Source: Chloroflexota bacterium (GTDB lineage: Bacteria > Chloroflexota > Dehalococcoidia > RBG-13-53-26). From it: 10,590 nt of DNA. The DNA lies in NCBI GenBank assembly GCA_030616195.1, contig JAUWXW010000031.1:1-10590 (forward strand), in the 5' to 3' direction. The translations under genes and the position numbers were made by a program. The notes under the pieces are model-generated. The model saw only the letters and a list, made by a program, of their open reading frames with translations, made no database searches and had not been told where the DNA came from. Of the stretch, positions 1 to 10,590 are shown one piece after another (position 1 is the first letter of the stretch; each line of letters opens with the position of its first letter).

Positions 1-1
1 C

Positions 2-484
2 TCGGCTACTAGTTTTGGAGAGACGGAGAAGTACGCTAAGATTATGTTGGAGAAAGGAATAAAGCCGGAGCTAGAGGTGTGGCACACGGGGCAGTTATGG
101 CTGGTGCGCAACCTGATTGAGCAGGGGCTGGTGAAACCACCTTACTTCATACAGTTTGTGATGGGCTTTCAAAGTGGCGCCTACGCTTCTCCCAAGGAGC
201 TCCTCCACCTGGTGGAGTGTGCCCCCAAGCCCTCGGTGTTCAGTTGCCTTGGGGTTGGGCCTTTGCAAAACCCCATCATCGCCATGGGTATCGTGCTGGG
301 AATCAATGTACGAACCGGCATGGAGGACAACGTACTCTATAAGCGAGGCGAGCTGTGCAAGGACAACGCCCAGCTAGTAGAGAGGGTGGCCAGAATGGCC
401 AGAGACCTCAATAGGGAGATAGCCACTCCTAAACAAGCCAGGCAAATGCTGGGTCTGTCGGAGAAACCATCGCGGTACGATTGA
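2..484 (+). CDS. beta-keto acid cleavage enzyme (BKACE, DUF849), 3' part
   Basis: This is the C-terminal part of a gene that starts before the window; the frame is open from base 2 to the TGA at 482-484. The family consists of Zn-dependent TIM-barrel enzymes, the founder being Kce of lysine fermentation. They condense a beta-keto acid with acetyl-CoA to give acetoacetate and a new CoA ester. Visible family signatures are the strand SVFSCLGVGPLQNP, the active-site stretch GINVRTGMEDN (family form close to GGxVRVGLEDN) and the C-terminal helix ending ATPKQARQMLGL. The Zn-binding His pair lies upstream of the window and cannot be checked. The usual GG before the RxGxED motif is GI here. The substrate is unknown: BKACE paralogues differ widely. 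Its place at the head of acyl-CoA genes suggests that it handles a beta-keto intermediate or supplies a CoA ester. Family assignment is firm; specificity is not. Confidence 0.88.
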   Translation, partial: SATSFGETEKYAKIMLEKGIKPELEVWHTGQLWLVRNLIEQGLVKPPYFIQFVMGFQSGAYASPKELLHLVECAPKPSVFSCLGVGPLQNPIIAMGIVLGINVRTGMEDNVLYKRGELCKDNAQLVERVARMARDLNREIATPKQARQMLGLSEKPSRYD

Positions 485-718
485 CGGCATTGAGGCAGGT
501 CCGCAAAGCAGGCTAGGGGTAGTTTTGGGCTGATCTAGGCTCACGGAATTTGTGCTATTCATGCTCAGACCTTCTGGACAGATGGCACAAGCCTGGGACA
601 GATATTGGGAAATGTGCTCTCCGAGTGAGGGTGCCCGATTGAGGAAAGGAGAACAGGCTGGTCTTCCGGATGCCTATTTGGGATGGTACCCAGGGATTAC
701 TTCAAAGGGGGAAACACA
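485..718 (+). other. intergenic gap before the HMGCS-like gene
   Basis: I see no convincing gene, hairpin terminator or sigma70-type promoter in this stretch. A short open frame from 552 has no ribosome binding site and runs into the next gene in another frame. A GGAAAGGAG at 643-651 resembles a Shine-Dalgarno site but lies too far (about 30 nt) from the ATG at 683. Confidence 0.5.
704..711 (+). promoter_or_regulatory. ribosome binding site that sets a GTG start
   Basis: AAAGGGGG lies 7 nt before GTG 719. The longer frame could begin at ATG 683, but no Shine-Dalgarno sequence lies at a workable distance there. The protein from 719 (VAGIVSYGAYIPF) begins exactly where archaeal HMG-CoA synthases begin (MGIVGYGVYIP). 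Confidence 0.7.
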
Positions 719-2158
719 GTGGCAGGAATCGTGTCTTACGGTGCATACATACCCTTTTCGCGGATGAAACGCCAGGTATTCTCCGATTTCTGGGGTGGGT
801 TTCCTATGCCTGGAGAGAGGGCAGTGGCCGGTTTCGATGAGGACAGCCTGACTATGGCCGTGGAATCAGGTATGGACTGTATGAAGGGGACTGACCCCAA
901 AACGGTGGACGGCTTGTTCTTTGCCACCACCACCTCGCCCTACAAGCAGTGGCTATGCTCCAGCATAATGGCTGTGGCCCTGGATATGCGCGACGATATC
1001 CGCACTATGGATATAACCGGCGCTCTTCGCGCCGGAACCACTGCTGTTGCTGCGGGACTCGATGCCATCGAGGCAGGCTCGATGAAGAGCGTTCTGGTCA
1101 CTGCCGGGGACAGTATTATGGGGGAACCTGGGAGCATATATGAGCAGGCCTTAGGTGATGGCGGGGCGGCTCTTCTCCTCGGAAGCGAGGGGGCTATTGC
1201 CATCATTGAGGGTAGCTGTCACATCTCCGACGACTTCGCTGGCATGTGGCGGGCGGACGGAGACCAGTATCTTCGCTCCTGGGAAGAGCGGATGGTTTGG
1301 GACCGAGGCTATTCCGAAATCCTGCCGCAAGCCATCTCCAGGCTGATGAACAAGCATAAGCTAGCCCCCTCAGATGTCAGCAAGGTAGTCTACGATGGGC
1401 CTCACGATCTGAGAAGGCATCTCAAGGTGGCCTCAACACTGAAGCTTGACGCTGCCCAGGTTCAGGATCCGCTTTTCTTGAACGTGGGCAATGCCGGTTG
1501 TGCCCTGGCAATGATGATGCTGGTGGCTGCTCTGGAGGAGGCCAAGGGAGGCGATAGGATCATCTTTGCCAGCTATGGCAACGGGGCCGATGCCTTCTTG
1601 CTCCGGGTGACCCCGGAGATAGAGAAGCTCAGGAATCGGCGGGGAATAAAACAACACCTGGCCTCCAAGAGGATGATCGACAATTATGCTAGCTTCGTCA
1701 AGTGGCGCAAACTGGTCCAAATGGACCAGTCCCGCGGTGCGGGCTTCCATGGGCCTACCTCAGTATCAGCACAGCGGCGGGAGCACAAGATAATACTCGG
1801 CCTTATGGGGGCCAAATGCAGGGTCTGTGGCACTCCCCAATACAACCAGGAGCGCAGCACCACACCTACGAGGATATGCGTAAGATGTCATGCCAAGGAC
1901 CAGTTCGAGGACTACAGGTTCGCCGACAGAAAGGCGAAGATCTTTAGCTTCACCCAGGACAATCTGGCTGCTCATCCTGACCCTCCGGTCACGTTGACGG
2001 TGGTTGACTTTGATGGAGGGGGCAGAGCCCTATTTGAGATGACGGACAGAGACCCCAATGAGATCGTAGTCGGGATGCCCGTGGAGATGGCCTTCAGGAA
2101 AGTATCCGTCGAAGGCGGGATACACAATTATTACTGGAAGACGAGACCCATAAGATAG
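719..2158 (+). CDS. HMG-CoA synthase-like protein fused to DUF35 zinc-ribbon/OB-fold, active site degenerate
   Basis: The protein has 479 aa. Residues 1 to about 330 follow archaeal HMG-CoA synthase: YGAYIP at the start, DEDSLTMAVE, then GALRAGTTA, and GNGADAFLLRVT near the end of the domain. Residues from about 354 onward are DUF35: a rubredoxin-like zinc ribbon with Cys367, Cys370, Cys387 and Cys390 (CxxC-x16-CxxC), followed by an OB-fold. Compared with archaeal HMG-CoA synthase from memory, the catalytic Glu of SESHPY is Thr71 (TTTSPY). The nucleophilic Cys of EFACKAGT is Leu103 (TGALRAGT). The His of VFHQP is Asp226 (VYDGP). Asn258 (VGNAG) is kept. Normal HMG-CoA synthesis is therefore unlikely. 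The thiolase gene starts 18 nt downstream. In archaea DUF35 bridges thiolase and HMG-CoA synthase and shares a CoA channel. I infer that this protein is a structural or CoA-binding partner of the thiolase, or has a different chemistry. Confidence 0.85.
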   Translation: MAGIVSYGAYIPFSRMKRQVFSDFWGGFPMPGERAVAGFDEDSLTMAVESGMDCMKGTDPKTVDGLFFATTTSPYKQWLCSSIMAVALDMRDDIRTMDITGALRAGTTAVAAGLDAIEAGSMKSVLVTAGDSIMGEPGSIYEQALGDGGAALLLGSEGAIAIIEGSCHISDDFAGMWRADGDQYLRSWEERMVWDRGYSEILPQAISRLMNKHKLAPSDVSKVVYDGPHDLRRHLKVASTLKLDAAQVQDPLFLNVGNAGCALAMMMLVAALEEAKGGDRIIFASYGNGADAFLLRVTPEIEKLRNRRGIKQHLASKRMIDNYASFVKWRKLVQMDQSRGAGFHGPTSVSAQRREHKIILGLMGAKCRVCGTPQYNQERSTTPTRICVRCHAKDQFEDYRFADRKAKIFSFTQDNLAAHPDPPVTLTVVDFDGGGRALFEMTDRDPNEIVVGMPVEMAFRKVSVEGGIHNYYWKTRPIR

Positions 2159-2176
2159 CAGAGAAAGGGGAAATGG

Positions 2177-3355
2177 ATGGCAGGGAGTATCAAGGACAGG
2201 GTTTGTATCATCGGTATGGGCTGCACCAAGTTTGGAGAGTTCTGGGACAAGAGTGTCGGCGATCTTGTGGTCGATGCTGCCTATGAAGCCTTTGAAGATG
2301 CTGGTGTCAGCCCCGAGGATATCCAAGCTGCCTGGGTAGGGACCTTTTATGAATACTCAGGGCAGGCAGGGCTGGCCCTTTCTGCCCCACTGAGGCTCCA
2401 GTATAAGCCGGTAACCAGAGTGGAGAATATGTGCGGCACGGGATCAGATGCCTTGAGAAACGCCTGCTATGCTGTGGCCGCAGGAATCTATGACATGGTA
2501 TTGGCACTTGGGGTGGAGAAAATAAAGGACCAGGGCGCAGGCGGTCTCACTTTTGGTGGCTATGCTACCTCGAATGTGATGCCTGCGACGACAGCGCCGG
2601 CTCAGTTTGCCATGATGGCTACCACCTATTTTGCTCGCTATGGCATTTCCCCCGAAGAAGGCAAGAGGATGCTGGCCAGAATCTCGGTCAAGAGCCACCA
2701 CAATGGATCCCTAAACCCGAAGGCGCACTTCCAGAGGGAACTGACTGTGGAGCAGGTGGTAAATGCTCCCATCATCGCCTGGCCTCTGGGGCTGTTCGAT
2801 TGCTGTGGTGTGAGCGATGGGGCAGCCGCGGCTATCGTGGTGCCTGCTGAAATGGCCAGGACATTCAGGCCCGATCCTGTCTATATCAAGGCGCTGCAAA
2901 TCTGCGCCGGCCCTGCCGATGGGCTGGTGAATACGGACTACGACTACACCCATGTCGAGGAGACCTACCGTGCCGGCCTGGCCGCCTACGCCGAGGCAGG
3001 GATATCCAACCCCCGCAAAGAGATCAGCATGGCTGAGGTGCACGACTGCTTCTCCATTACCGAGGCCATCATAATGGAGGACCTCCAGTTTAGTCCCAGG
3101 GGAAAGGCAAAAGAGGATATCGATGCCGGGACCTTTGAACTCAACGGGGAACTGCCTGTGCAGCCCGATGGTGGTCTCAAGTGCTTTGGACACCCGATTG
3201 GGGCCTCGGGGCTGAGGATGATGTATGAAATGTACAAACAGCTTCAGGGAAAGGCTGACCGCCGCCAGATAAAAAATCCGCGTCTGGGGCTGACTCACAA
3301 CATGGGGGGGCGGCCGCCGGGGGCTGTCGTCAACTGTACCATTGTAGGCCTATGA
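2177..3355 (+). CDS. thiolase of the SCP2/archaeal acetoacetyl-CoA thiolase type
   Basis: The protein has 392 aa, the full length for this family. Start ATG 2177 has AAAGGGG 6 nt upstream; the ATG at 2173 is out of frame. Visible active-site elements are the nucleophile Cys86 in ENMCGTGSDA, His289 in EVHDCFSITEA, Cys336 and His339 in GGLKCFGHPIGASG, and NMGG at 375-378 near the C-terminus. This subfamily (Ltp2, archaeal AACT and BbsB are relatives) commonly works with a DUF35 protein, here fused to the gene just upstream. The likely role is thiolytic or retro-aldol C-C cleavage of a beta-keto- or beta-hydroxyacyl-CoA, the last step of the pathway. All catalytic residues are present, so the thiolase is expected to be active even though its HMGCS-like partner is not. 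Substrate cannot be read from the sequence. Confidence 0.92.
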   Translation: MAGSIKDRVCIIGMGCTKFGEFWDKSVGDLVVDAAYEAFEDAGVSPEDIQAAWVGTFYEYSGQAGLALSAPLRLQYKPVTRVENMCGTGSDALRNACYAVAAGIYDMVLALGVEKIKDQGAGGLTFGGYATSNVMPATTAPAQFAMMATTYFARYGISPEEGKRMLARISVKSHHNGSLNPKAHFQRELTVEQVVNAPIIAWPLGLFDCCGVSDGAAAAIVVPAEMARTFRPDPVYIKALQICAGPADGLVNTDYDYTHVEETYRAGLAAYAEAGISNPRKEISMAEVHDCFSITEAIIMEDLQFSPRGKAKEDIDAGTFELNGELPVQPDGGLKCFGHPIGASGLRMMYEMYKQLQGKADRRQIKNPRLGLTHNMGGRPPGAVVNCTIVGL

Positions 3356-3558
3356 GGTCAGGTGTCCACCGTCTTTGGGGTAAGTACCTGGAATATGGCA
3401 AGACCTGGAGGCTCTGCCAGAAGCGGCCGGAGGCATTATTCCAGGGAAGCACGGGGCCGTGTTCACGGGGCTGGGCAGGTGAGTAGCAGCATTCTGGATA
3501 TCAAGTACTTCAAACCATTGTGAGTTGAATGACCATCCCAATCAAAGGAGGACATGGA
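3356..3558 (+). other. intergenic gap, no recognised gene
   Basis: About 200 nt separate the thiolase from the dehydratase pair. A frame from GTG 3362 runs some 50 codons to a TGA near 3524 but lacks a Shine-Dalgarno site and resembles nothing I know. The other two frames are also open over part of the stretch. It may be a decayed coding fragment. No clear terminator or promoter is seen. Confidence 0.4.
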
Positions 3559-4119
3559 ATGACACAGGAGAAGAAGAAAACCCCGGAGGAGATGCTCCAG
3601 GAGGCTCAGCGGATGATAGGCAACGAGACGAAGCCGGTTGCCAATCAATATCCGGTGGAGTACGAGCCCATCCGACGGTACTGCATCATGGTTGATGATG
3701 ATAACCCCATGTTTCTGGACCCTGAATATGCCAAGAAGACCAAGCACGGCGGTGTCATCCTCCCGCCTTTTGCGACTTTTGGCATCATGAGCGGGGGCTC
3801 CCCCGCGGCTATGGCCAGGTGGTTTGATGCGGCAGAGACGCCGATCATGCCTCCAGCCCCGGGCAAATTCGTTGTCAATATGGCTCAGGAGTGGGAGTGG
3901 TCCAAGACGGTAATGGTAGGCGACCGATTGACCAGTAAAGTCAGGCTAGCCGATGTGTACATAAAGCCAATTCGTTTAGATCCGAAAGCGTTTTGGGTAG
4001 TCGTTGAGATGATAATAGGCAACCAGAGGGGAGAGACGGTGTGCACTGTGCAAAACGTCCTGCTTCTGCACAGGTCCCCGGAAGAAGTAGCGGCAGATCA
4101 GCCGCACAAAGGAGGTTAA
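3559..4119 (+). CDS. FAS1-like/MaoC N-terminal-domain dehydratase subunit
   Basis: The protein has 186 aa. I chose ATG 3559 because AAGGAGG (3545-3551) lies 7 nt upstream; the frame is open back to ATG 3529, which has no such site. The fold is the hot-dog MaoC_dehydrat_N type. Residues about 39-58 give RRYCIMVDDDNPMFLDPEYA, followed by KHGGVILPP. The hydratase motif D-x-N-P-x-H is present as D47-D-N49-P50-M-F52, so the catalytic His is Phe. This is usual for the structural half of two-subunit hydratases such as HadAB or ChsH1/ChsH2, where the partner carries the catalytic pair. The partner gene starts 3 nt after this stop. The function is thus hydration of an enoyl-CoA as a heterodimer. Substrate is unknown; a bulky or branched acyl-CoA is possible by analogy. 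Confidence 0.85.
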   Translation: MTQEKKKTPEEMLQEAQRMIGNETKPVANQYPVEYEPIRRYCIMVDDDNPMFLDPEYAKKTKHGGVILPPFATFGIMSGGSPAAMARWFDAAETPIMPPAPGKFVVNMAQEWEWSKTVMVGDRLTSKVRLADVYIKPIRLDPKAFWVVVEMIIGNQRGETVCTVQNVLLLHRSPEEVAADQPHKGG

Positions 4120-4122
4120 CAG

Positions 4123-4562
4123 GTGGAGCGCAAGCAACTCTACTGGGAAGATGTAAAGCTGGGGCAGGAAATACCCACCAGCTACTCTCTGAAGCTCGAT
4201 CCAACACGAATGGTCCTACAGGTAAGTGGCACCCAGGATTACTATCAGGTACACCATGATAGGGACTTTGCCCATGCCCAGGGTGTTCCGGATCCCTTCT
4301 TTAGCACGGGCTTCATCAGTGCAGCTCTGGGGGGAGACTGTTAACGGACTGGATCGGCCCTGAGGGGTGTCTCCGCAAGTTCAGGATGGAGATGAGAAGG
4401 ATGAACCTTCTCGGAGATACCATGACAGTCAACGGGAAGGTGACCGACAAGTACGTCCGGGACGAGGAGCATTATGTGGAAGCCGAAGTCTGGTGTGAGA
4501 CTGACACGCAAGGGGTTACCACCCCCTGCAAGGCAACAATGGTCCTTCCCTCTCGAGGTTAG
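4123..4562 (+). pseudogene. MaoC-type enoyl-CoA hydratase subunit with a frameshift
   Basis: Start is GTG 4123, with AAAGGAGG (4108-4115) 7 nt upstream. The first frame ends early at TAA 4342-4344 (73 aa). Reading in the -1 frame from 4335 gives an uninterrupted MaoC C-terminal half: RLLTDWIGPEG, then RMNLLGDTMTVNGKV, then EHYVEAEVW, ending VLPSRG and TAG 4560-4562. Rejoined, the product is about 146 aa, normal for a single hot-dog subunit. The catalytic pair is Asp39 and His44 (D-x4-H) in QDYYQVHHD, which complements the upstream subunit that lacks this His. The break lies at six G (4329-4334). It may be a real one-base deletion, a homopolymer sequencing or assembly error, or -1 slippage on G GGG GGA. 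The downstream half looks intact at protein level, so any damage is recent or not real. Confidence 0.82.
4329..4335 (+). other. homopolymer/slippery heptamer at the frame break
   Basis: GGGGGGA in the zero frame reads G GGG GGA, which fits the X XXY YYZ form of -1 frameshift sites. Slippage here would give exactly the frame that restores the MaoC domain. A possible stem pairs GGAGAC (4333-4338) with GTCTCC (4369-4374), but it overlaps the heptamer instead of lying 5-9 nt after it. It is therefore not a classical stimulator. Confidence 0.4.
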
Positions 4563-4766
4563 GCCCGTCTTGTTGCAGGATAGGGCTCAGTGCATCACAT
4601 TATAGCCAGGCACGCTTGTAGTCACTGCGCTGAACCGTGACAATGACGTCTTTGTCCATGTTTTGGCGTCTACGATGAGAATGTTGCAGAAGTCCGTGCC
4701 AAAAGCCGTCGCCATAGCAGTGTTTGGGTTGTGACAAGAGAGCGTCGCAGATCACAAAGGAGGAGA
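4563..4766 (+). other. intergenic gap before the acyl-CoA dehydrogenase pair
   Basis: No recognised gene lies here. One frame is open from about 4606 to the TGA at 4731-4733 region (reading PGTLVVTALNRDNDVFVHVL and on) but has no start codon with a Shine-Dalgarno site. It could be a decayed fragment or chance. I found no good promoter or terminator. Confidence 0.35.
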
Positions 4767-5957
4767 ATGGACTTTGCGTTCACCGAAGAGGAGGAGGCTT
4801 TTCGACAAGAGGTTAAGGAATGGCTAAAGAAAGAGATCCCGACAAGGTGGTATGAGCTCAGTCCTGGACTGTTTGAGGAGAATGAGGAGACCTGGGATAT
4901 CGCTCGCCAGTTTGAACGGAGACTGGCTGATAACGGCTGGTACGCGCCATCATATCCCACAGAATATGGCGGCGTGAACGCTACCTTCATGCAGCAGTGC
5001 ATTCTCTCCGAGGAGAAGGCTCTGTTGCGTGCACCTACCACGATGAGTCAGTTGTTTGCTGTTGGAATCGTCGGACCGACCCTCATGCTTTATGGGAGTG
5101 AAGAGCAAAAGAAGAAATACCTAAGGGGAATAGGAACGGCGGAGCTTGTTTTCTGTTTGGGCTATAGCGAACCGACGTCCGGATCCGATCTTGCTGCACT
5201 TCAGACCCGAGCCATGGAGGATGGCGACGATCTGGTTATCAACGGTCAGAAGATATTCACTACCCTTGCCCATCGTGCTGACTACTGCTGGTTGGCTGTC
5301 AAGACCGATCCCGATGCCCCAAGACATAGGGGGATCAGCATGCTCATTGTGGATATGAAGACCCCCGGCATCGCCGTGCGTCCCTTGATGAACATCGTTG
5401 GCTCCCACGAGTTCAACGAGGTTTTCTTTGACAATGTGCGTGTCCCCAAGACGGCCTTGGTGGGAGAGAAGAATCGAGGCTGGCATTATGCAATGACGGC
5501 CCTCAGCTACGAACGCTCTGGTATTACTGGTCCAGCCTTCATGCACACACTCATAGAGGACTTGGTAAAGTATGCCAAGGAGACAACGAGCGATGGCAGA
5601 GCACTATCTGATGACCCGCTAGTTCAGCAAAAGCTGGCGGCAATGGCTACCGACGTCGAGGTGTCGCGCCTACTATGCTATCGCGTAGCTGACCTGGAAA
5701 GCAGAGGTGGGATTCCCACCTACGAGGCTTCCGTATCGATGGTGTTTGCTTCTGAACTGGCCAGGCGCATTGCCAAGTTGGGGGGAGAAATCTTGGGGCT
5801 TTATGGTCAGCTAACCAGAGATTCCAAGCGAGCACCCTTGAGGGGCGCGATTGAAGTCCTTTATCTGTCGACTCTTGTTCTGGGCATTGCCGGTGGAACT
5901 AATGAGATTCAAAGAACTGTCATCGCTCTCTTGGGGTTGGGTTTGCCCAGGGGATAG
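4767..5957 (+). CDS. acyl-CoA dehydrogenase, probable catalytic subunit
   Basis: The protein has 396 aa. ATG 4767 is preceded by AAAGGAGG (4756-4763), a short 3-nt spacing. The frame extends upstream to GTG 4731, but the added residues (TRERRRSQRRR) do not fit the family, whose members start like MDFAFTEEEEAFR. The FAD/substrate motif is YSEPTSGSDLA at 133-143, and the C-terminus reads IAGGTNEIQR. The MCAD-type catalytic Glu position (YEGT) is Gly376. Glu249 in LSYERSG lies about where isovaleryl-CoA dehydrogenase carries its base, as in many FadE proteins with a GGTxEIQ ending. The enzyme is expected to introduce an alpha-beta double bond and pass electrons to an ETF. The second dehydrogenase begins 18 nt after its stop, which suggests an alpha2beta2 heteromer like FadE28-FadE29. 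That pairing is inferred. Confidence 0.9.
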   Translation: MDFAFTEEEEAFRQEVKEWLKKEIPTRWYELSPGLFEENEETWDIARQFERRLADNGWYAPSYPTEYGGVNATFMQQCILSEEKALLRAPTTMSQLFAVGIVGPTLMLYGSEEQKKKYLRGIGTAELVFCLGYSEPTSGSDLAALQTRAMEDGDDLVINGQKIFTTLAHRADYCWLAVKTDPDAPRHRGISMLIVDMKTPGIAVRPLMNIVGSHEFNEVFFDNVRVPKTALVGEKNRGWHYAMTALSYERSGITGPAFMHTLIEDLVKYAKETTSDGRALSDDPLVQQKLAAMATDVEVSRLLCYRVADLESRGGIPTYEASVSMVFASELARRIAKLGGEILGLYGQLTRDSKRAPLRGAIEVLYLSTLVLGIAGGTNEIQRTVIALLGLGLPRG

Positions 5958-5975
5958 GCTAGAAGAGGTATTCTC

Positions 5976-7115
5976 ATGGATCTTAGTTTGAGTGAACAGC
6001 AAGAAATGCTGAGGAAGACGGCTCGCGATTTCTTTCAGAAGGAATGTCCGAAGTCACTGGTGAGGGAAATGGCAGAGGATGAGAAGGGCTATTCTCCAGA
6101 TCTGTGGCACAAGATGGCAGAGCTGGGGTGGATGGGGTTGGTCTTCCCCACTGAATACGGGGGCGCTGGCGCTGATTTCCTCGACTTGGCTCTTCTGCTC
6201 GAGGAGATGGGGCGCGCCTGTCTTCCCGGCCCGTTCTTTTCAACGGTGGTTCTTTGTGGACTTACGATCTTGGCTGAAGGGAGCGAGGAGCAGAGGCAAG
6301 AGTTCCTAACCGGGATAGCCAGGGGGGAGCTGATTCTGGCCTTTGCTTTGACGGAACCCAGCGCTCGGTATGAGGCTTCGGCAATTGCCACTCGTGCTGT
6401 GCCTGAACACGATGGCTATGTTATCAACGGCACGAAGCTGTTCGTCAACGATGCCCATATCGCTGATTACGTCCTATGTGCAGCCAGGAGCAAGAAGACT
6501 GGCAAACCTGAGGAGGGAATCACGCTGTTCCTGGTGAGCACGCGGAGCCCGGGGATCGAATGTACTCCGCTCAGGACCATGGCTTCCGACAAACAGTGTG
6601 AGGTGGTATTCAACAACGTGAAGGTAGGGAAGAAGAACATTCTAGGGAAAGTGAATCAGGGCTGGCGCATAGTGGAGAGGACCTTACAGCAGGCGGCAGT
6701 GGCCAGATGCGCGGACATGGTGGGTAGTGCCAGAAGTGCCTTTGAGATGAGTGTCAGCTACGCCAAAGAAAGGGTTCAATTCGGTCGCCCTATCGGCAGC
6801 TTTCAGGCAATCCAACATCACTGTGCCAATATGGTCGTGGACATAGATGGCTCCGCTTTCATCACCTATGAAGCAGCTTGGAGGCTTAGCCAGGGCCTTT
6901 CCAGCACCATGTTGGTCTCCATGGCCAAGGCCTGGGTTAACGAAGCTTGCCAGAGGGTTACCCTTCTAGGACATCAGATTCATGGCGGTATCAGTTTCTG
7001 TGAAGATCACGATATGCATCTCTTCCATCGGAGGGTGAGAGCAGGTGCCCTTACGCTGGGGGATACAGCCTTCCATCAGAGGGTTGTCGCCCGTGAACTA
7101 CTGCGCCATGTTTGA
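5976..7115 (+). CDS. acyl-CoA dehydrogenase, probable non-catalytic FAD/structural subunit
   Basis: The protein has 379 aa, starting at ATG 5976 with GAGG (5965-5968) 7 nt upstream. Family features are MDLSLSEQQEMLRKTARDFF at the start, FPTEYGGAG at 57-65, ALTEPSA at 124-130, the FAD-contact stretch ERVQFGRPIGSFQAIQH from 265, and QIHGG at 334-338. The MCAD Glu position is Gly362 (LGDT in place of YEGT). The isovaleryl-type position aligns with a small residue near Ala240-241; Glu234 is several residues too early. No obvious catalytic base is left. In FadE-type heterotetramers one subunit type keeps the base and the other helps bind FAD. This fits a partner role for the upstream gene, but is an alignment by eye. 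Confidence 0.88.
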   Translation: MDLSLSEQQEMLRKTARDFFQKECPKSLVREMAEDEKGYSPDLWHKMAELGWMGLVFPTEYGGAGADFLDLALLLEEMGRACLPGPFFSTVVLCGLTILAEGSEEQRQEFLTGIARGELILAFALTEPSARYEASAIATRAVPEHDGYVINGTKLFVNDAHIADYVLCAARSKKTGKPEEGITLFLVSTRSPGIECTPLRTMASDKQCEVVFNNVKVGKKNILGKVNQGWRIVERTLQQAAVARCADMVGSARSAFEMSVSYAKERVQFGRPIGSFQAIQHHCANMVVDIDGSAFITYEAAWRLSQGLSSTMLVSMAKAWVNEACQRVTLLGHQIHGGISFCEDHDMHLFHRRVRAGALTLGDTAFHQRVVARELLRHV

Positions 7116-7355
7116 TGCTAGAATGGGCTCATCCACAACTGAGATTGAGGTATGTGATAGCGAAGATCAAATGGACTTCGTTCAATGCATTTGTGTTCTA
7201 TCCATTTCGATATACCCCAAATAGCTTCGCTAACCATGAAGAAGGCAGTCCTTCTGGAGCGGGCGGTTTGAGGGACTACTGGAAGAAAGGATGTCGGAAG
7301 CAGAACAAGAAGGCAATGTTAGCAAAATGTTAGCAGAGAACCCTGAGTTAGGCAG
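7116..7355. other. spacer between catabolic cluster and tRNA-Lys
   Basis: A short open frame begins inside the preceding stop region (ATG 7112) and runs to 7333 (73 codons). It lacks a Shine-Dalgarno site and has no family character, so I do not call it a gene. A 10-nt direct repeat, AATGTTAGCA, occurs at 7315-7324 and 7326-7335. No hairpin-plus-T terminator is evident for either flanking transcript. Confidence 0.45.
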
Positions 7356-7427
7356 TAGGCCGTGTGGGACTCGAACCCACGACGCCCTGATTAAAAGTCA
7401 GGTGCTCTTCCTCTGAGCTAACGGCCC
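7356..7427 (-). tRNA. tRNA-Lys (anticodon TTT)
   Basis: The minus strand folds as a complete cloverleaf of 72 nt. The acceptor stem GGGCCGT pairs with ACGGCCT, with one G-U at the end. The D arm begins TAGCTCAG. The anticodon arm is CCTGA-CTTTTAA-TCAGG with anticodon TTT (7395-7393), and the T arm is GTGGG-TTCGAGT-CCCAC. The discriminator base is A. CCA is not encoded; the bases after it are CTG. The short variable region GCGTC is normal for lysine tRNA. Confidence 0.96.
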
Positions 7428-7635
7428 AGCCTCCTATTCTACCCTATTGGCCAAGAAATTTCCTTCTCTCCCAAGGGCACCAGAGGCCCTTACAGCGTCG
7501 AGCCGCCGGAGGCGACTCTGCCGACCGAAGACCATGGATTTTTTCACTCGCCGAAGGTCGCCAGAGGATCGTCTAACGCCACACCTAGCTCAAAATGACA
7601 GACGGCACCGCCAAACATGCTGTGTGCCTGGATGC
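7428..7635. other. spacer between tRNA-Lys and the aminotransferase promoter
   Basis: There is no supportable gene; an open frame from 7447 to 7695 has no Shine-Dalgarno site and runs through the promoter. An imperfect hairpin, GAGCCGCC (7500-7507) with GGCGACTC (7511-7518), has one C-A mismatch and a 3-nt loop. T6 lies at 7539-7544, too far for a classical intrinsic terminator. Confidence 0.4.
7436..7441 (-). promoter_or_regulatory. candidate -10 box for tRNA-Lys
   Basis: TAGAAT on the minus strand lies 8 nt before the tRNA 5' end, a normal distance for a tRNA promoter. No good -35 hexamer is found 16-18 nt upstream, so the call is tentative. Confidence 0.35.
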
Positions 7636-7664
7636 TTGTGTCGCGACAAGACAATGGCTATAAT
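7636..7664 (+). promoter_or_regulatory. sigma70-type promoter for the aminotransferase operon
   Basis: TTGTGT (7636-7641), a 17-nt spacer, then TATAAT (7659-7664): the -10 box is perfect and the -35 keeps TTG. A 10-bp perfect palindrome, TGTCGCGACA (7639-7648), overlaps the -35 box and spacer and could be an operator. Predicted transcription start is near 7671, leaving a leader of about 145 nt. Confidence 0.6.
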
Positions 7665-7684
7665 TAGGGACAATATAAATACCG

Positions 7685-7726
7685 GTTCTCAATAGGGGGT
7701 GGGCTCCTCCCTGAAGCACTGAGAGT
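7685..7726 (+). promoter_or_regulatory. structured 5' leader hairpin
   Basis: Two nested helices are visible. The outer one pairs TCTCA (7687-7691) with TGAGA (7720-7724), extendable by two wobble pairs. The inner one pairs AGGGGG (7694-7699) with CTCCCT (7707-7712), with one G-U and loop TGGGCTC. An AAGGAGG (7727-7733) follows directly but no start codon comes after it. It matches no riboswitch or T-box that I recognise. It could be a cis-regulator of the aminotransferase gene or simply an mRNA-stabilising structure. Confidence 0.4.
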
Positions 7727-7804
7727 AAGGAGGAAACATAGGTCGGCTACCACCCGCAAGCTCTTTCAGCAACCCGAACTAACCAGCCCAGCCCACCGAA
7801 AGAA

Positions 7805-7809
7805 GGAGG
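7805..7809 (+). promoter_or_regulatory. ribosome binding site that sets a GTG start
   Basis: GGAGG directly abuts ATG 7810, which leaves no spacing for that codon. GTG 7816, in the same frame, lies 6 nt beyond it and gives the usual family N-terminus (M)ADFAFFN. I therefore place the start at 7816. Confidence 0.7.
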
Positions 7810-7815
7810 ATGCCT

Positions 7816-8748
7816 GTGGCAGACTTTGCTTTCTTTAATAAACAATTCGTGCCCCTCTCTGAAGCCAAGCTAGGCATTATGACTCACGCCCTCCACTATG
7901 GCACTGCTTGCTTCGACGGCATCCGAGGTAACTGGAATAGCGAAGAGGGGAAAATGTACCTCTTTCGCATCGCAGACCACCACCAGAGACTGCACAAGAG
8001 CTGTCACATAATGAAAATCAACCTTCGGTACAGCGTTGACGAACTGTGCCGGTTCACGGTGGAACTGACAGAGAGGAACGACTACCGGGAAGACATCTAC
8101 ATTCGTCCCCTGGCATACAAAAGCTCCCAGGCTGTGGGGGTGAGGCTGCACGATTTAGAGGATGACTTCCTCATGTTCGTTACTCCTTTCGGGCCCTATC
8201 TCGACATAGACAAGGGTGCCAGATGCTGCGTCTCAACCTGGCGCCGTATCGATGACAATGTGATTCCCCCACGGGCTAAGGTGACTGGTCTCTACGTCAA
8301 CAGCGCCATGGCCAAAACAGAAGCCTGGGAAAACGGCTTCGACGAGGCTATCCTTCTCAACCATGACGGCCATGTCTCTGAGGGGAGCGGGGAGAATATC
8401 TTCCTCGTTTTCGAAGGCAAGCTGGTTACTCCTCTCTCATCGGACAATATCCTGGTGGGCATCACCCGGGATACAATCATGAAACTGGCCAAGAACGAAC
8501 TGGGCATTGACACTATCGAGAGATCCGTCGACCGCAACGAGCTCTACATTGCCGACGAGTGCTTCCTGACAGGGACTGCAGCCCATGTAACCCCGGTTAT
8601 TGAGATTGACCATCGTAGCGTGGGTGAAGGAGCAGTGGGCGAAATCACCAGGAAATTGCAGCAGCTTTATTTTGATGTGATACGGGGTAAGAACCCCAAA
8701 TACATCGACTGGTGCACTCCTGTCCACCGCAGCAAGGCGGTGGCATAG
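7816..8748 (+). CDS. ilvE: branched-chain amino acid aminotransferase (class IV PLP enzyme)
   Basis: The protein is about 310 aa from GTG 7816 and transfers the amino group between Glu/2-oxoglutarate and Leu, Ile or Val. Fold-type IV motifs are in order: FFNKQFVP at the N-terminus, THALHYGTACFDGIRG, IYIRPLAYKS, then Lys155 in RAKVTGLYVNSAMAKTEA as the Schiff-base lysine. After these come the phosphate/cofactor segment VSEGSGENIF and LTGTAAHVTPV. Lys155 is encoded at 8278-8280. Length and motifs are complete. The related D-amino acid transaminase and aminodeoxychorismate lyase are shorter and lack the IRP-YKS context, so BCAT is preferred. It heads a small operon with two membrane protein genes that have no obvious metabolic link. 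The promoter and leader structure upstream suggest its own regulation. Confidence 0.93.
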   Translation: MADFAFFNKQFVPLSEAKLGIMTHALHYGTACFDGIRGNWNSEEGKMYLFRIADHHQRLHKSCHIMKINLRYSVDELCRFTVELTERNDYREDIYIRPLAYKSSQAVGVRLHDLEDDFLMFVTPFGPYLDIDKGARCCVSTWRRIDDNVIPPRAKVTGLYVNSAMAKTEAWENGFDEAILLNHDGHVSEGSGENIFLVFEGKLVTPLSSDNILVGITRDTIMKLAKNELGIDTIERSVDRNELYIADECFLTGTAAHVTPVIEIDHRSVGEGAVGEITRKLQQLYFDVIRGKNPKYIDWCTPVHRSKAVA

Positions 8749-8758
8749 CATTTGAACT

Positions 8759-9196
8759 GTGAACGAGTTGGCAGCAACTGAGGTAGTAACCCGTGCGGAA
8801 TACCTAATATTCATCTTTACTGCTTCCGTAGGGGTGTTGCAACTGGTAGCTGCCCGGACCCAACTCAAAGGGTTGCTTTTCTTCAAAAAGCCAGTCCTGG
8901 CCTATCCCTTCTCCCTCCTGCTAATAATAGGCTCCTTTTGGTGGTTCTTCGTACGGGACGACCGCATTGATACGATAATGCGCCAGCCCGGGCTGGAGGG
9001 CTCAGGGCAGTTCTATAATTTCTGTATGGGAGCCTTCGCGGCCCTCCTTTTCACCCTGGCTGTCTCCTCCCTGATTGGCCTCCTGCGGCGCAGGGGGCAG
9101 CGCAACGAAAACGAGAATAGCGAGGGGCTAGACACCCTAAGACAAATGAGCTACTTCGAGGCGGTCAAACGCAGCTTCAGGTCAAAGGAAGATTAA
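8759..9196 (+). CDS. hypothetical three-helix membrane protein
   Basis: I do not recognise this 145-aa protein. It begins at GTG 8759, 10 nt after the aminotransferase stop, with no visible Shine-Dalgarno sequence, so translational coupling is likely. Three hydrophobic helices are visible at about 14-33, 45-65 (with SFWWFFV) and 86-109. Basic residues follow the third (LRRRGQR), and a polar tail of about 35 residues ends FRSKED, presumably cytoplasmic. No catalytic motif is evident. Its stop directly abuts the ATG of the PAP2-fold gene, which suggests that the two are made together and may act together at the membrane. Confidence 0.72.
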   Translation: MNELAATEVVTRAEYLIFIFTASVGVLQLVAARTQLKGLLFFKKPVLAYPFSLLLIIGSFWWFFVRDDRIDTIMRQPGLEGSGQFYNFCMGAFAALLFTLAVSSLIGLLRRRGQRNENENSEGLDTLRQMSYFEAVKRSFRSKED

Positions 9197-9796
9197 ATGA
9201 CCGGGATAGATGAGAGGATAATCCTATGGATCAACGACCTGGTGGGTAAGTCCGCCGCGCTGGACAGGATTATGATCTGGTTGGCCAGCGATTACTTTAT
9301 CCCGGTTACTATCTCCCTTATTCTGCTGGCTATGTGGTTCTTGGGTCAGGGCACGGCTGAGCGGGAGAACTATCAACGGGCAGTCATGTGTGCCTTTATA
9401 ACCATAGGATTTGCTTCTGGCTTCGTTCTGGCTGCCAATCACATATATAGCCACCCACACCCTTTTGACGCTTTACCCGAACTGAAGGCTACCGTAGCCC
9501 AGATTTTCTACGAAATCCACGACCCGGCCTTCCCCAGCAACACAGCGACACTCACCTTTGCGGCGGCTGCTGGCCTGTGGCAAAAGAGCCGCAAACTCGG
9601 ATATCTGATGCTTGTCCCTGCTATCCTCATGCCCCTGGCCAAACTCTACGCCGCCGTTTATTGGCCTTCGGACATAGTGGCCGGGGCAATTCTAGCAATA
9701 CTCACCAGCTTCCTTATCTCCTGGGTAGTAATGCCTCTGGGTGAACCCATGATCGGTGGTTTCATTAAGGTAATGAGGAAACTCTGCCTCGCCTAG
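9197..9796 (+). CDS. PAP2-fold membrane protein with degenerate phosphatase motifs
   Basis: The protein has 199 aa, starting at ATG 9197 immediately after the preceding TAA; AAAGGAAG at about 9184-9191 serves as Shine-Dalgarno. The overall plan is that of a type-2 phosphatidic acid or undecaprenyl-pyrophosphate phosphatase: several membrane helices and an IDERIILWINDLVG start. All three phosphatase motifs are altered, however. The KxxxxxxRP motif reads NHIYSHPHPF (81-90) without the Lys or Arg. PSGH reads PSNT (113-116), losing its His. SRxxxxxHxxxD reads AKLYAAVYWPSD (147-158), with Lys148 for Arg and Tyr154 for the nucleophilic His; Asp158 is kept. Classical phosphatase activity is thus doubtful. 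It could be a lipid-binding or scaffold relative, or use other chemistry. The neighbouring polyprenol-phosphate sugar transferase makes a lipid-carrier link plausible. Confidence 0.82.
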   Translation: MTGIDERIILWINDLVGKSAALDRIMIWLASDYFIPVTISLILLAMWFLGQGTAERENYQRAVMCAFITIGFASGFVLAANHIYSHPHPFDALPELKATVAQIFYEIHDPAFPSNTATLTFAAAAGLWQKSRKLGYLMLVPAILMPLAKLYAAVYWPSDIVAGAILAILTSFLISWVVMPLGEPMIGGFIKVMRKLCLA

Positions 9797-10485
9797 AGCC
9801 TGAACCTCAGCCGCAGCACGGTAATCATATACCTGACAATCTCCCTGGTCGAGAACTTGGATGCGCCCGTCCTTTTGTCGGTGAATTCAATAGGTATTTC
9901 GACGCAGCGGAAACCTTTCTTTGTCAGCCTGTAGAGTGTTTCCATTCCGATGGAGTAGCCGGTGGAATAGAACCGATCGAAATCCAAGGAACCCAGTGCC
10001 TCTCGCCTGTAGCACTTATATCCACCACACCAGTCCTTGATGTGCCGCCCCAGCAGTAATCGAGTGTACAGATTGGCGCCACTGCTGATTATTTTCCTCG
10101 ACGGGGTCCTGACCGACTTGCCTCCCTTCACCAGCCGCGAGCCAATGACCACATCACATTCCCCGATTTTATCCAGAAATTGCGGGATGTATCCAGGATG
10201 GTGCGAGAAGTCGGCATCCATCTCAATAATGCAGTCAACCTCCTGCTCCAGGGCATATCTGAATCCGGCAATACCGGCTGTCCCCCTGCCTCTTTCCTGG
10301 CGATGAATCACCCAGATTCTACCCGGGTTCTGCCCGGCCAGCCTATCGGCCATCTCACCCGTTCCATCCGGCGAGCTATCGTCCACGATCACAATTCTTA
10401 TGTCATCTTGGGCCAGGATCTGATTGACGATCTTTTCAATGTTCTCTCTCTCGTTGTAGGTGGGTAACATTACTATTGCCTTCAT
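9793..10485 (-). CDS. polyprenol/dolichol-phosphate mannose synthase-like glycosyltransferase (GT2)
   Basis: The protein has 230 aa from ATG 10485; the frame opens upstream to 10539, but MKAIVMLPTYNERENI is the typical family start and the promoter -10 lies inside the extra stretch. Domains are a single GT-A fold: LPTYNERENI (7-16), VIVDDSSPDGTG (32-43, Asp35/Asp36), DADFSHHP (90-97) as the metal-binding DxD, GSRLVKGGK (115-123), WCGGYKCYRREAL (152-164) and IEFTDKRTGASKFS (199-212). It is expected to transfer mannose (or another hexose) from GDP- or UDP-sugar to a polyprenyl phosphate on the inner face of the membrane. No C-terminal membrane helices are present, as in the soluble DPM1-type. 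The product would feed glycan or glycoprotein assembly. Sugar and lipid specificity cannot be read. Confidence 0.9.
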   Translation of the reverse strand: MKAIVMLPTYNERENIEKIVNQILAQDDIRIVIVDDSSPDGTGEMADRLAGQNPGRIWVIHRQERGRGTAGIAGFRYALEQEVDCIIEMDADFSHHPGYIPQFLDKIGECDVVIGSRLVKGGKSVRTPSRKIISSGANLYTRLLLGRHIKDWCGGYKCYRREALGSLDFDRFYSTGYSIGMETLYRLTKKGFRCVEIPIEFTDKRTGASKFSTREIVRYMITVLRLRFRL

Positions 10486-10494
10486 AGCAGCCCC

Positions 10495-10523
10495 ATTATA
10501 TAGCCCCGCTGGCTTGGTGTAAA
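10495..10523 (-). promoter_or_regulatory. sigma70-type promoter for the GT2 gene, probably leaderless
   Basis: Minus strand: TTTACA (10523-10518), a 17-nt spacer and TATAAT (10500-10495). Five of six bases match the -35 consensus and the -10 is perfect. Only 9 nt separate the -10 box from ATG 10485, so transcription should begin within a base or two of the start codon. Confidence 0.72.
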
Positions 10524-10524
10524 A

Positions 10525-10552
10525 ATCAGCGGTCAGCAATCAGCCATCAGTT
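10525..10552 (+). repeat. heptad tandem repeat, four imperfect copies
   Basis: Units are ATCAGCG, GTCAGCA, ATCAGCC and ATCAGTT in direct succession. They lie just upstream of the GT2 -35 box. Repeats of this 7-nt type occur between genes in several environmental bacterial groups. Here they could also mark an upstream operator. Confidence 0.6.
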
Positions 10553-10590
10553 CAAGTGGGTGTCAGGTCCCCGCCACGGCGAGTCGGCCG

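Follow-up and report, generated by a model that had tools for sequence, protein, structure and literature searches.

The 10,590-nucleotide stretch of DNA analysed here (contig JAUWXW010000031.1 of the Chloroflexota assembly GCA_030616195.1, positions 1 to 10,590), referred to as the window, encodes a 479-residue protein in which a domain resembling 3-hydroxy-3-methylglutaryl coenzyme A synthase (HMG-CoA synthase, HMGCS) is fused to DUF35, and which is followed after 18 nt by the gene of an SCP2-type thiolase. All three catalytic residues of archaeal HMGCS are replaced in the fused protein, while the thiolase is intact. The parts of this pair are as follows.

719..2158, plus strand: fused 479-residue protein with GTG start, consisting of a pseudo-HMG-CoA-synthase domain (about residues 1–335) and DUF35 (about residues 350–479)
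719..1723, plus strand: pseudo-HMGCS domain, residues 1–335, without the triad Glu, Cys and His
929..931, plus strand: Thr71 codon, position of the catalytic Glu82 in archaeal HMGCS
1025..1027, plus strand: Leu103 codon, position of the catalytic Cys114
1394..1396, plus strand: Asp226 codon, position of the catalytic His238, not conserved in the family
1769..2155, plus strand: DUF35 part with a four-Cys zinc ribbon (Cys367, 370, 387 and 390) and an OB fold
2177..3355, plus strand: SCP2-type thiolase of 392 residues with intact Cys86, HDCF (289–292) and His339-Pro, above the cut-off of NCBIfam NF004810

A preliminary description of the window had reported the triad-less HMGCS-like domain fused to DUF35, and the comparison with archaeal HMGCS bears this out. 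The motif blocks align gap-free at the Glu and Cys positions, and the domain has the HMGCS fold of the thiolase superfamily, superposing at 1.4 Å. We assessed the replacement in relatives using an alignment of 227 distinct rows composed of loci with matches of at least 350 residues, 120 listed proteins, loci from the genomes of relatives and references; as the protein lists hold the best 120 of 3705, of 1154 and of 1351 matches, remoter members may differ. Neither Glu71 nor Cys103 occurs in any of the 217 rows of fused length, which exclude L015 (389 residues), and the triad count omits L070, whose match is split in two, as well as the partial sequences of L075 and of the second L020 copy. Among 64 representatives below 75 % identity, position 71 is Thr in 62 and position 103 is Leu in 58, while position 226 takes 11 different residues (Asp in 26, Tyr in 24 and nine others in the remaining 14). 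The replacement by Thr, Leu and Asp is thus conserved in its first two members only, the family signature is T/L/any, and Asp226 as a catalytic substitute was rejected because the position varies.

A second set, collected via an unfused relative, contributed four further fused proteins branching at the base of the family; here Cys is found in none of 53 fused rows and Glu in a single one. This basal protein, P0199, keeps the catalytic Glu and carries Thr in place of Cys and Tyr in place of His. Cys at position 103 is likewise missing from 51 further rows, among them fragments and one unfused protein; the triad positions of one locus, L151, read Leu-Ser-Asp. One relative of the window protein, P0002, is 89 % identical and named Chloroflexota. 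Instead of the local oddity that close homologues with a normal triad would have indicated, the loss is a family trait, with Cys in no fused relative examined and Glu in one.

Conservation across the domain was compared using 116 columns in which 60 triad-bearing HMGCS rows agree to at least 95 %. Of these, 40 are kept in more than 80 % of the 53 fused rows and 52 in less than 20 %, from which we conclude that the fold stays while the active site goes. The lost columns include E82, C114, K115, H200, H238, N241, Y272, G303 and S304, the last two being deleted, and no newly conserved Cys/His/Ser set was found at the triad positions among the fused rows. The four zinc ribbon cysteines of DUF35 show a conservation of 1.0 in the 64 representatives and are invariant in 73 rows of alignment A1, while a crude spacing pattern matched the ribbon in only 136 of 217 rows. 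With a C-terminal DUF35, an HMGCS-like and an SCP2-type thiolase part encoded together, the window contains the components of complexes of the 6ESQ and PhlABC type.

The thiolase scores 589.5 bits against the NF004810 cut-off of 403 and retains Cys86, His289 (followed by Asp, Cys291 and Phe) and His339-Pro, as the preliminary description had stated for Cys86, His289 and His339. A thiolase match is present in 76 of 77 loci, the exception being L017, where the contig ends 40 nt past the fused gene. The complete C–HDCF–HP motif is found in 74 of 77 adjacent thiolases (the remaining three are partial sequences; six thiolase-like matches with less than 50 % identity or located farther off were left out), and the gap between the aligned ends of both partners amounts to 13–207 nt in 73 of 77 pairs and to about 1 kb in four. 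In a later set, a same-strand thiolase lies no more than 3 kb away in 46 of 51 rows; the Cys is retained in every one of these 46 and the full motif in 44, next to one partial sequence and one with HDCL. One thiolase-like gene without the nucleophilic Cys (L025:14878-16023, G..HDAF..HA) adjoins an open reading frame of a cluster with separate DUF35 and possibly encodes an aldolase or another non-thiolase.

The following genes surround the pair in the window.

2..484, plus strand: beta-keto acid cleavage enzyme (BKACE), C-terminal 160 residues, cut by the window start and possibly part of the same pathway
3529..4119, plus strand: FAS1-DH/HadA-like hot-dog protein, probably acting as enoyl-CoA hydratase in the same pathway
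4773..5957, plus strand: acyl-CoA dehydrogenase, with the PimC large subunit as top NCBIfam match below cut-off; a GTG start at 4731 would give a longer protein
5976..7115, plus strand: second acyl-CoA dehydrogenase, AcrC/PimD-like, below cut-offs

This catabolic stretch is followed by a tRNA-Lys(ttt) gene on the minus strand (7355-7427), and a 145-residue open reading frame at 8759-9196 has no Pfam match. BKACE was considered as a conserved partner and rejected, as it occurs in only 1 of 77 loci.

Among the relatives are six loci of the Desulfotomaculum type (L028, L030, L031, L034, L038 and L051), where the fused gene and the thiolase precede one or two hot-dog hydratase genes, a short-chain dehydrogenase/reductase (SDR) and an acyl-CoA dehydrogenase, and where AMP-ligase genes lie upstream on the opposite strand in all six; with family names resting on one representative each, these loci form a full β-oxidation set. 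Further loci bring CoA transferases, methylmalonyl-CoA-mutase-like or glycyl-radical enzymes. Outside the SAR202-type loci described below, at least one β-oxidation enzyme is found in 20 of 38 loci, and in 19 of the 29 that span at least 9 kb. In one Desulfovirgula metagenome-assembled genome, the region downstream of the pair (L021:4375-7782) codes for a radical SAM protein and a glycyl radical enzyme of glycerol/diol dehydratase type.

In Desulfobacterota the architecture extends further. Eight loci (L147, L148, L149, L150, L152, L153, L155 and L156) encode proteins of about 807–914 residues, each followed directly by the thiolase gene, which is split in two in L149. A Pfam search of the seven proteins other than that of L149 revealed the order pseudo-HMGCS, DUF35 and SDR in all seven, with an additional SCP2 domain in five; variants of 1036–1038 residues also exist (P0314 and P0354). 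Fox2/MFE-2 is the closest match of the L148 SDR (2ET6, E 4.6e-133; human 17beta-HSD4, 6.2e-93), the YxxxK and Rossmann motifs are present in all 120 listed relatives, and none of the 120 listed long fusions has Cys or Glu at the triad positions. The preceding gene encodes an MFE-2-like protein that combines hydratase 2, SDR and SCP2 domains in all four loci tested, and L147 additionally contains an acyl-CoA dehydrogenase and a CoA transferase. A three-way fusion including the thiolase, suggested by frames of 811–939 residues, was rejected because all eight examined with BLAST matches have the thiolase as next gene. L154 has a 910-residue frame outside the Pfam-searched proteins, and in L151 the length of the frame stems from a spurious upstream extension that has no thiolase match.

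An IQ-TREE phylogeny of 58 rows, calculated without the triad columns, places the fused proteins in one clade (98/96) and the unfused triad-less relatives in another (97/83), and groups PhlA with five triad-bearing HMGCS (86/94) instead of the fused clade; it leaves the order among these three groups open. FastTree on 141 rows supports the fused clade at 1.0 and makes the two triad-less clades sisters (0.959), with PhlA placed at only 0.174. These sequence-based trees favour a single fusion event, and a separate triad loss in PhlA is possible, if not firm. Two unfused triad-less loci, L108:7147-9779 and L109:7687-10292, have the gene order thiolase, pseudo-HMGCS, DUF35 and represent an intermediate architecture; in L108, from Desulfotruncus arcticus, the trio lies downstream of genes that by eye resemble acyl-CoA dehydrogenase and enoyl-CoA hydratase. 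Members of the fused clade come from Chloroflexota, Desulfobacterota, Firmicutes of the Desulfotomaculum type and others; Desulfotruncus arcticus, Desulfoscipio geothermicus and Desulfofundulus australicus are carriers available in culture. Surveys with differing queries and cut-offs, each sampling part of a phylum, gave matches in 17 of 301 genomes for the phylum of a Dehalococcoidia centre, 79 of 247 for that of a Desulfobacterales centre and 9 of 249 for that of Desulfotruncus. The Dehalococcoidia bin1158 alone has 12 HMGCS-model matches, some of them fragments or weak; several of those in L110, L111, L112, L113 and L114 are truncated or contain a stop, reflecting decay or assembly errors.

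We consider it roughly two-thirds probable that the pair is a degradative two-chain β-ketoacyl-CoA thiolase resembling the archaeal complex, in which the HMGCS part, as a pseudoenzyme, holds substrate or CoA next to the thiolase site. Both chains would form a physical complex that works in the thiolysis direction on a bulky or branched substrate. The thiolase would carry out all chemistry, with Cys86 as the nucleophile and the HDCF and His339-Pro motifs, whereas the fused DUF35 would dock the pseudo-HMGCS fold onto it. The latter may close a shared CoA/acyl tunnel, and the old synthase pocket could accommodate CoA or the substrate's bulky or polar portion, in a role analogous to that of the dead MaoC domain of ChsH2 for steroid rings. 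Of the two roles suggested in the preliminary description, this elaborates the CoA/acyl holder or scaffold, which fits triad loss as a family trait next to a thiolase that, where its sequence is readable, stays intact apart from one Phe-to-Leu exchange in HDCF.

Several observations weigh against this assignment. In 39 of the 77 loci, the SAR202 type (including L036 and L056), the pair adjoins S41 peptidase and/or MinC-like genes outside β-oxidation operons; only 15 of these have a β-oxidation-type match, which in 14 cases is an SDR and little informative. Within the window no 3-hydroxyacyl-CoA dehydrogenase was seen. The expectation that the fused gene always stands next to a thiolase holds for the great majority of loci and fails in a few: five of the 51 later rows have none downstream, and of these L122 (contig end with 75 nt left), L110 (truncated gene) and L146 (unfused, thiolase upstream) are explained, while L123 and L151 are real exceptions without a thiolase in 2.9 and 4.0 kb, respectively. 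The distance matrices of fused protein and thiolase do correlate, in favour of the pairing, with r 0.933 for 71 pairs and no shuffle above 0.193, but this value is uncorrected for shared descent. A single-chain read-through model of the pair, serving as a stand-in for a complex prediction, reached a predicted template modelling score (pTM) of only 0.66, which favours neither side. The pseudo-HMGCS part has newly conserved charged residues (Glu77, Arg104, Arg133 and Glu189), so that it might bind a new ligand or catalyse a new reaction. Finally, DUF35 proved unimportant or expendable for some of the activity in ChsH2 and Shy (PMC11321319).

Among other explanations, the pair could be a C-acyltransferase like PhlABC or MucABC that forms C–C bonds in a Claisen or Friedel–Crafts type reaction with the pseudo-HMGCS as scaffold. 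We regard this as unlikely, as the scanned neighbours include acyl-CoA dehydrogenases, hydratases, SDR, CoA transferases and CoA ligases, with no polyketide genes among them, PhlA falls outside the fused clade at the support values given above, and the window thiolase matches 6ESQ_A (7.3e-62) better than PhlC (3.9e-22). Similarly unlikely is a thiolase that acts alone, with the fused protein merely stabilising it or persisting as a regulatory remnant. It would agree with a Shy–Sal hydratase that is independent of DUF35 and with Sal retaining, in the presence of DUF35 only, an aldolase activity of about one third of the full complex that is lost on dilution (PMC11321319), but the pairing persists in several phyla and among paralogues, and functional PhlABC could be produced only with the entire operon (PMC6392133).

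It is rather improbable that the HMGCS-like domain has gained a reaction of its own, such as acyl-CoA hydrolysis or the retro-aldol cleavage of a tertiary hydroxyacyl-CoA that the preliminary description had offered as its second suggestion. The near-invariant Thr71 and Leu103 and the four newly conserved charged residues speak for such a reaction, whereas the free variation at position 226, the deletion of G303-S304 and the lack of a new Cys/His/Ser set at the triad positions speak against it. Retro-aldol cleavage is disfavoured in particular, since the SDR of 3-hydroxyacyl-CoA dehydrogenase type that is fused or neighbouring in some relatives would make a ketone for thiolysis, most directly where it sits on the same chain, and since the Tyr base of the YDHF/YDCY motif of Sal and Ltp2 is absent, with HDCF in its place in the window and in 74 of the 77 adjacent thiolases, the other three being partial. 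A true HMG-CoA synthase with a misaligned triad is very improbable: the scores of 211.9 and 165.1 bits against HMGCS models, which would speak for it, stay below the cut-offs of NF003274 (244) and TIGR00748 (353.35), and gap-free motif blocks and superposition contradict it. The cut-off of 244 in itself separates the families poorly, since 4 of the genomes of 12 relatives have a match above it, three of these being fused-length frames (470, 506 and 474 residues).

More tentatively, the degradative thiolase pair may belong to an undescribed anaerobic counterpart of the peroxisomal β-oxidation of bulky acids, in which a single fusion created a substrate-holding thiolase partner that became distributed among Chloroflexota, Desulfobacterota and Desulfotomaculia, some lineages then capturing an MFE-2-type dehydrogenase and an SCP2 acyl carrier to give a channelled dehydrogenase–thiolase machine. 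If the pair is a degradative thiolase with a pseudoenzyme partner, the fused genes would mark a widespread β-oxidation module of anaerobes. Where the source names them, they frequently carry the label “hydroxymethylglutaryl-CoA synthase” or “3-hydroxy-3-methylglutaryl CoA synthase”, which wrongly implies that Chloroflexota and sulfate reducers perform a step of the mevalonate pathway. The trees, with moderate support, would further suggest that the HMGCS fold turned into a pseudoenzyme of thiolase complexes more than once, and fusion to the enzyme acting one step earlier would provide a natural case in which to test substrate channelling through DUF35 complexes, which has been named as a future question (PMC12329534). 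No description of the fused catabolic family, its SDR–SCP2 extension or its reach was found in the open-access literature, which is weak evidence given that subscription papers were not covered; excerpts of a proteomics study of methanogenic benzene degradation (PMC13101534) likewise contain no link to DUF35 or HMGCS.

Compared to known systems, the archaeal acetoacetyl-CoA thiolase/DUF35/HMGCS complex (6ESQ, 6ET9) has HMGCS and DUF35 as separate chains and keeps Glu82 and Cys114, whereas here both are fused and the triad is lost. The SCP2-type thiolase and DUF35 recur in catabolic β-oxidation in the benzoylsuccinyl-CoA thiolase BbsAB (7PXP), although the window thiolase scores 162.8 against the BbsB cut-off of 750. 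To our knowledge, BbsAB has no HMGCS-like part, and the peroxisomal MFE-2/SCPx proteins, which the Desulfobacterota relatives recall through their links to MFE-2-type SDR, MFE-2 hydratase-2 and SCP2 domains, have neither pseudo-HMGCS nor DUF35. In ChsH1–ChsH2–Ltp2, the dead MaoC domain of ChsH2 forms one chain with DUF35, accommodates steroid rings and docks on a C–C cleaving enzyme of thiolase fold (PMC11321319). This dead domain has a hot-dog fold, however, Shy has no dead domain, and the partners Ltp2 and Sal are aldolases with YDHF/YDCY (PMC12329534) instead of a thiolase with HDCF. Comparable in the state of the HMGCS part are MucABC (9VBO), where 9VBO_A lost the same Cys and Glu positions next to an active thiolase subunit, and PhlABC (5M3K, 9SKH), a three-part Friedel–Crafts acyltransferase with DUF35 and an active thiolase subunit, whose HMGCS-like PhlA has Gly115 and Cys83 in place of Cys and Glu (PMC6392133). 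PhlA was called an inactive member of the thiolase superfamily in 2010, when DUF35 fusions to members of this superfamily were also noted (PMC2954200). PhlA and PhlB are separate chains, the complex is biosynthetic, and PhlA stands in the tree with triad-bearing HMGCS. Dead partners are hence familiar from antibiotic synthesis, while a family in a breakdown pathway seems undescribed. As both this Cys and this Glu are already missing from PhlA, part of a complex of the same three components, the new kind of thiolase partner envisaged in the preliminary description is not new in this respect, but its fusion, its catabolic setting and its extent are.

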